A stretch of 54,888 bases of DNA, taken from positions 1 through 54,888 of the forward strand of contig VGBO01000010.1 in the NCBI GenBank assembly GCA_016870475.1, in the 5' to 3' direction. The position numbers and the translations under genes were made by a program. Origin of the DNA: Actinomycetota bacterium. Its GTDB lineage: Bacteria > Actinomycetota > Acidimicrobiia > Acidimicrobiales > CAIXPF01. Position 1 is the first letter of the stretch. Each line of letters opens with the position of its first letter. This document shows positions 27,383-28,989 of the stretch, piece after piece. The notes below the pieces were generated by a model that was not told the origin of the DNA, did not search any database, and was given only the letters and a program-made list of their open reading frames with translations.

Positions 27383-27388
27383 ACCCTA
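27383..27388 (-). promoter_or_regulatory. -10 box TAGGGT overlapping the stop codon of the upstream minus-strand gene
   Basis: 6 nt before ATG 27376 (minus). Confidence 0.5.
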
Positions 27389-28174
27389 ACGCCGGGTGCC
27401 GTGGGCGTGCGGCGCGAACCGGTCGATTCGCACGAACCGGTCCGTGTCGTCGAGCACGACCAGCAGCACCTCGGCCGGACCGTCCCCGAACGCCACGCGC
27501 ACAGCGATTGTGTCGCCCGCGCCGACGACGGCGTCGACACGGACCCGTGCCGGTTCGTCGGCATCGGCGTGCACCGCACCCTCTGCCGCGCGCCACGCGG
27601 CCGAACCCTCGAGAACGGTCGGCGGATCGCAGGAGTCCGGGCGCACGAGGACACCGTCGGCGACGAACGCGTCGACGGCGAGGCCCGCATCCCACGACCA
27701 CGCCTCCGCCCACCGTGCGACGAGATCCCGCGCTGCGCCCGCGGACCGCCGCAGCGAACCGTCCGGCGCCGGGGGGGTGACGAAGGACCCGTCGTCGAGG
27801 ATGCGTCGCCGTTCCCAGGGGAGGAAGCGGTGTTCCTCGATGATCATCCCGTCGGCGTCGAGCCGCCACCAGCACAGCAACGGCGCCGACATCGGCACGG
27901 CGTCCACCGTGTCGCGGCCGACCTGCAGGGCCTCGACGACCACGGTGTCGCCCTCGGCGTCGGCGACGACCCGCACCACCCGGCAGCGACGGTCCGGCAC
28001 GCGCAGGTACGACTCGACTTCGAGGCGGGTCAACGCGTCGAGCCCCACGGCGAGCGGTGCGCCGTCGAGGTCGACGACGGTCACGTCGGCGGCATAGCAG
28101 GCCGCGACGTGGGCCGACGGGTCGCCGGCACGCGACGACACCCAACGTTCGACGACCTCACGGGGGGTGGGCAC
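27386..28174 (-). CDS. SnoaL/NTF2-like (tandem) hypothetical protein
   Basis: VPTPREVVERWVSSRAGDPSAHVAACYAADVTVVDLDG... second NTF2-like half ARWAEAWSWDAGLAVDAFVADGVLVRPDS; TACCGT 6 nt before GTG. Confidence 0.6.
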   Translation of the reverse strand: MPTPREVVERWVSSRAGDPSAHVAACYAADVTVVDLDGAPLAVGLDALTRLEVESYLRVPDRRCRVVRVVADAEGDTVVVEALQVGRDTVDAVPMSAPLLCWWRLDADGMIIEEHRFLPWERRRILDDGSFVTPPAPDGSLRRSAGAARDLVARWAEAWSWDAGLAVDAFVADGVLVRPDSCDPPTVLEGSAAWRAAEGAVHADADEPARVRVDAVVGAGDTIAVRVAFGDGPAEVLLVVLDDTDRFVRIDRFAPHAHGTRR

Positions 28175-28180
28175 CTCCGC

Positions 28181-28190
28181 ACGGTACCGT
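28181..28190. promoter_or_regulatory. Perfect palindromic bidirectional -10 element ACGGTACCGT
   Basis: Reads TACCGT on both strands; 6 nt from GTG 28174 (minus) and 7 nt from ATG 28198 (plus). Confidence 0.6.
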
Positions 28191-28197
28191 CGCCGGC

Positions 28198-28989
28198 ATG
28201 TCCGACCGGACGCCGCGCTGGGATCCCGATCAGTACCTCCGCTTCGGCGACGAACGCGCCCGACCATTCGCCGACCTCGTCGCACGGATCGACATTGCAG
28301 CGCCCGCTGTCGTCGTCGATCTCGGGTGCGGCCCCGGCACGCTCACCGTCGGGCTCTGCGAACGGTGGCCCACGGCGTCGGTGATCGGGGTCGACAGCTC
28401 ACCGGACATGGTCGCCGCCGCACGGCCGCTCGCGAACGAACGCGTGCAGTTCTTCGAGGCGGACCTCCGCACCTGGCGACCGGGTGATGCCGCCGACGTC
28501 GTCGTCGCCAACGCCACGCTCCAGTGGGTCGAGGGGCACGACCGTCTGCTCGGCGACCTCCTCGACATGCTTCGCCCCGACGGCGTGCTGGCGTTCCAGG
28601 TGCCCGGCAACTTCGACGCGCCGAGCCACCGCTGCATCGAGGAGACCGTGTTGTCGGACCCCTGGCGCGACGTCGTCGACGCCTCGGTGCTCGAGCGCCC
28701 CCGCTCCCACGCCGCCGCGCACTACCTCGAGGTCCTCGCCGACCTCGGTTGCCTCGTCGACGCGTGGGAGACCACCTACCTGCACGTCCTGCACGGCGCC
28801 CGCCCCGTTCTCGAGTGGGTGCGTGGTACGGCGTTGCGGCCCGTCCTCGCCGCGCTCGACCCGTCGCGCCACGAAGAGTTCTGCGACGCCCTCGCCGCCC
28901 GACTCGCCGTCGTCTATCCGCAACGGAACGGGCGGACGGTGCTGCCGTTCCGGCGGATCTTCGTCGTGGCACGACGACCCGCACGCTGA
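28198..28989 (+). CDS. tam: Trans-aconitate 2-methyltransferase-like
   Basis: WDPDQYLRFGDERARPFADLVARI...VVDLGCGPGTLT...VGVDSSPDM-type motif; NATLQWVEGHDRLL...LAFQVPGNFDAPSH. Confidence 0.82.
   Translation: MSDRTPRWDPDQYLRFGDERARPFADLVARIDIAAPAVVVDLGCGPGTLTVGLCERWPTASVIGVDSSPDMVAAARPLANERVQFFEADLRTWRPGDAADVVVANATLQWVEGHDRLLGDLLDMLRPDGVLAFQVPGNFDAPSHRCIEETVLSDPWRDVVDASVLERPRSHAAAHYLEVLADLGCLVDAWETTYLHVLHGARPVLEWVRGTALRPVLAALDPSRHEEFCDALAARLAVVYPQRNGRTVLPFRRIFVVARRPAR

Follow-up and report, generated by a model that had tools for sequence, protein, structure and literature searches.

A shared-TA core in the 23-bp gap between two divergent genes of an Acidimicrobiia genome: a predicted bidirectional promoter of two leaderless mRNAs

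How are two divergent genes transcribed when only 23 bp lie between their start codons? The locus that raises this question lies in the window, the 54,888-nucleotide stretch of DNA analysed here, which is contig 10 of an Acidimicrobiia MAG (2.45 Mb, 98.7% complete). On the minus strand, a gene for a SnoaL-like domain protein of 262 aa (27386..28174) has a predicted leaderless start at GTG 28174 and matches SnoaL_2 (PF12680) with an E-value of 6e-13 in the Pfam/NCBIfam search. On the plus strand, a methyltransferase gene of the trans-aconitate 2-methyltransferase type (28198..28989, 263 aa) has a predicted leaderless start at ATG 28198; in the same search it matches NF010703 with an E-value of 4e-94 and 314.9 bits, just below the curated cut-off of 320 bits, and is counted as a near relative of that family, not as a member. 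The two start codons, 24 nt apart, are exactly those chosen by the gene finder, which relies on the coding score only and is blind to promoters. No regulator gene adjoins the locus.

The bases from 28172 to 28200 read CAC-CTCCGC-ACGGTACCGT-CGCCGGC-ATG, and the element ACGGTACCGT at 28181-28190 is identical to its own reverse complement. It reads TACCGT on either strand, at 28185-28190 on the plus strand and at 28186-28181 on the minus strand, with T28185 and A28186 common to both; it is an instance of the core ANNNTANNNT, two opposite-strand TANNNT boxes that share a central TA. The first T of the predicted −10 box of the methyltransferase gene (28185..28190, plus) stands 13 nt before ATG 28198, and that of the SnoaL-like gene (28181..28186, minus) stands 12 nt before GTG 28174. 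Neither spacer holds a usable Shine-Dalgarno sequence: the 7-nt spacer CGCCGGC on the plus side (28191..28197) has none, and the GGAG in the 6-nt spacer on the minus side (28175..28180) abuts the GTG, so that at zero spacing it is not usable for that start. The palindrome, the two TACCGT boxes with a common TA, both starts and both spacer lengths are as the first-pass annotation had given them, to the base.

Within the window, ACGGTACCGT is found once (0.05 expected), as is the full pattern CAY-N6-ANNNTANNNT-N7-RTG (0.06 expected); local odds of about 6%, reckoned after the fact, are thus modest. By itself, ANNNTANNNT shows no enrichment in the window, with 4 occurrences vs 8.3 expected. The weight of the support is comparative, and the register kept in relatives together with the enrichment across 99 genomes is strong evidence that the 10-base element very probably initiates both genes, in opposite directions.

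Judging from the position of the box, leaderless TANNNT promoters are widely used in this organism. Among the 423 starts scored in 455 kb of its own genome, TANNNT has its first T at a distance of 12, 13 or 14 nt upstream of the start codon in 26, 23 and 29 cases, respectively, compared with about one per position elsewhere. The same genome has two further shared-TA sites, one at positions 14673-14702 of contig 39, between an SDR gene and the gene for an HTH_67 protein, and one at positions 15479-15509 of contig 21, which resembles the site at a MazG-like/alcohol dehydrogenase pair in another genome of the family, G002. A leaderless start is not a general trait of the methyltransferase gene: TANNNT stands at the start in 2 of 80 wider actinobacterial homologues, and in relatives from the same family the gene sits inside an operon.

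These relatives (genomes G001, G004 and G005) suggest that the element is inherited. In all three, the SnoaL gene diverges from an amidase gene, which is followed by an aminotransferase gene and then by the methyltransferase gene, and the SnoaL-amidase gap contains a core of the same kind (AGACTACCGT in G001 and G004, AGGCTACCGT in G005). The SnoaL GTG is 6 nt from the core in each of them, the same spacing as in the window. The forward box TACCGT is invariant in all four sites, along with the SnoaL start codon and the first A of the core, whereas the SnoaL proteins share only about 32-38% identity across these genomes. The minus boxes of the relatives are TAGTCT (G001 and G004) and TAGCCT (G005). 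What is kept is ANNNTANNNT, and the perfect palindrome, which the first-pass annotation had treated as the essential feature, is not essential, because the orthologous sites are imperfect.

On the plus side, an ATG lies 8, 8 and 6 nt past the core in G001, G004 and G005, respectively, compared with 7 nt for the methyltransferase ATG of the window. In the relatives this ATG opens only a short ORF of 11-12 codons, and the TGA that ends this ORF shares bases with the start codon of the amidase gene, as GTGA or ATGA; therefore a leaderless large gene on the plus side would be specific to the lineage of the window. The short ORF is possibly a leaderless coupling leader peptide (L036, 6866-6922; L037, 4261-4320; L038, 8366-8420). 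The gene between the core and the methyltransferase varies while the core is retained. At this place the window genome has neither the amidase nor the aminotransferase gene, and their homologues elsewhere in it are merely 33-47% and 27-39% identical, respectively. With the first two genes of the operon missing, the methyltransferase ATG stands at the position of the operon's first ATG. The simplest account would be a deletion of the amidase and aminotransferase genes, by which the methyltransferase inherited an existing forward −10 box; in the same lineage TAG(T/C)CT apparently gave way to TACCGT as the minus box, making the palindrome perfect.

The arrangement recurs at dozens of other gene pairs in this group of bacteria. 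Across 99 genomes of the order, we counted patterns of the form CAY-Nx-ANNNTANNNT-Ny-RTG, with the reversed pattern and an off-register version as controls and with the 18-bp alternative TANNNTA counted alongside; the counts were compiled by hand from tables. In the main stratum, 63 genomes with low chance rates as ranked by the control counts of the other patterns, there are 181 in-register shared-TA sites with spacers of 6/7 nt and 149 with 7/8 nt, against 37 off-register sites (p ~1e-8 and ~1e-7, respectively) and 73 and 56 sites for the reversed pattern. In-register shared-TA boxes are thus 4-5 times commoner between divergent start codons than off-register ones. In the genomes with high chance rates, which are probably AT-richer, every pattern is at chance level. 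Where the DNA of the sites was examined, 23 of 50 (46%) are flanked by two coding-like divergent ORFs, compared with 10 of 448 (2.2%) box-less start pairs of the same spacing. The 18-bp form gives 42 and 34 sites between divergent leaderless starts vs 37 off-register, that is, no enrichment, and it was rejected as the typical architecture there. A genome-wide search for palindromes between divergent starts had been suggested by the first-pass annotation, which named the TANNNTA type; its expectation holds for the shared-TA form ANNNTANNNT and fails for the type it named.

Several of these sites are conserved at well-known genes. In several families of the order, one TA core is common to the Pup ligase gene pafA and a small ORF that diverges from it. 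Of the 28 pafA loci read, 8 have the perfect ACGGTACCGT, identical over 10 bp in 8 genomes, and 5 have variants, with flanks that differ; pafA genes with a divergent start keep the shared core, and those without one usually retain only their own box. Between groES and an alpha/beta hydrolase gene, the shared core is ACGCTAGCGT in four genomes from the same family as the window and ACGGTACCGT in a second family, and murF and ddl diverge from a single ACGGTACCGT core in two genera. The groES core is a perfect TA-centred palindrome in which the inner bases change symmetrically between families. Overall, 23 perfect palindromes were observed among the 237 listed sites of high-GC genomes, where 14 would be expected if the boxes paired randomly (p 0.01), that is, about 10% of such sites vs about 6% expected from box frequencies, and part of this excess comes from pafA orthologues counted repeatedly. 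No other box comes near TACCGT in frequency (84 of the 474 boxes tabulated), so that symmetry among the inner bases mostly follows from the preference for certain boxes. With a slight excess only and orthologues that lack it, perfect palindromy was rejected as a selected trait.

Three other explanations of the site were considered. The core could be a one-way promoter that fires in the SnoaL or the methyltransferase direction only, the opposite box being a coincidence favoured by the frequency of TACCGT. Overlap is unavoidable for any two boxes with a 23-bp spacing, and the full pattern would turn up by chance in the window with a probability of about 6%, which leaves some room for such an accident. 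However, both half-boxes are retained in the three diverged relatives, the in-register doubles are enriched across the order, and coding-like ORFs lie on both sides; taken together, these facts make a one-way promoter unlikely. The retention of both half-boxes also gives indirect support to the view that two-way transcription would depend on the shared element.

A perfect inverted repeat between divergent genes also resembles an operator, and the slight over-representation of perfect palindromes fits the suggestion that the element mainly binds a dimeric regulator of one or both genes and is not a pair of −10 boxes. But the orthologous sites lack the perfect symmetry and yet retain the outer A/T and the TA, an operator of 10 bp would be a short one, the same core stands at the unrelated pairs of pafA, murF/ddl and groES, and a regulator gene is missing next to the locus. 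We regard this explanation as very improbable. Least credible of all is a chance palindrome in a GC-rich genome, with both genes transcribed from elsewhere: the lack of enrichment of ANNNTANNNT over the whole window agrees with it, whereas the register with both starts, the conservation in relatives and the order-wide enrichment speak against it.

We therefore favour, with a probability of roughly 0.8, the reading that the 23-bp gap is one bidirectional promoter of the sigma-A type with two leaderless mRNAs, inherited from an ancestor and left in place while genes beside it were lost. RNA polymerase would bind the TA-centred core in either orientation; the plus-strand −10 contact with TACCGT would lead to a start at or near A28198, and the minus-strand contact with TACCGT to a start at or near G28174. 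The two mRNAs would have their 5′ ends at the start codons or within 1-2 nt of them and would be translated as leaderless messages. The ancestral promoter would have separated the SnoaL gene from the amidase-aminotransferase-methyltransferase operon, as the same core does in the relatives, and loss of the first two genes of the operon would have brought the conserved forward box immediately in front of the methyltransferase ATG. This agrees with the original proposal of one element for two oppositely oriented leaderless genes, which now gains comparative support from the register in relatives and the order-wide enrichment. The mutually exclusive firing that was proposed with it would follow on steric grounds. 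Alternative promoters may lie inside the coding regions.

Bacteria are known to use bidirectional promoters in which −10 elements are shared (Warman et al. 2021 Nat Microbiol, as summarised in PMC10268837 and PMC12825309). According to the same summaries, a spacing of 18 bp is the commonest, 10 and 23 bp also being common; simultaneous occupancy is sterically impossible, and competition is negligible at basal activity and emerges once one direction is activated. In all five E. coli cases tested, basal activity was too low for competition (PMC12825309). The site described here matches the 23-bp class, in which opposite-strand −10 elements share bases, starts are about 23 bp apart and polymerase binds either way, and would be its most compact, doubly leaderless form; its start codons are separated by 24 nt, within 1 nt of that class (PMC12825309), and the TA steps of its two −10 elements coincide at T28185/A28186, a coincidence that we ascribe to the class from our own geometry. 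In contrast to the promoters of E. coli and Salmonella, described mainly at the 18-bp spacing, the form enriched at divergent leaderless starts in the 99 genomes is the 23-bp shared-TA one and not the 18-bp one, and here the promoter occupies the entire intergenic space.

Passages of PMC3898074 and PMC3160421 establish leaderless TANNNT promoters for Actinobacteria, and those of PMC3898074 state that divergent promoters commonly lie in close juxtaposition in M. tuberculosis. The promoters described in these passages, for M. tuberculosis and in a survey, respectively, resemble ours in having TANNNT about 12 nt before the start, no Shine-Dalgarno sequence and an A or G start; ours differs in that two of them are fused back to back, and the passages of PMC3898074 contain no shared −10 elements. 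Our literature search, which covered few subscription papers, returned no description of doubly leaderless shared-TA promoters.

For the Acidimicrobiia, it seems somewhat likely that the shared-TA core ANNNTANNNT is a widespread and conserved promoter type, which drives two leaderless mRNAs from a gap of 22-26 bp, serves core genes such as pafA, groES and murF/ddl, and is inherited as one unit even when its neighbouring genes change, of which this locus would be an example. Its conservation across deep divergence and its use by the genes for the Pup ligase and GroES would make it a source of natural and testable cases of competition between polymerase orientations at well-known genes. If this picture is correct, two genes could hardly be driven by less DNA: the whole 23-bp gap would act as promoter, and neither mRNA would carry an untranslated leader. 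Gene loss could then hand a ready-made promoter to a gene that had not used it before, with no need to build another.
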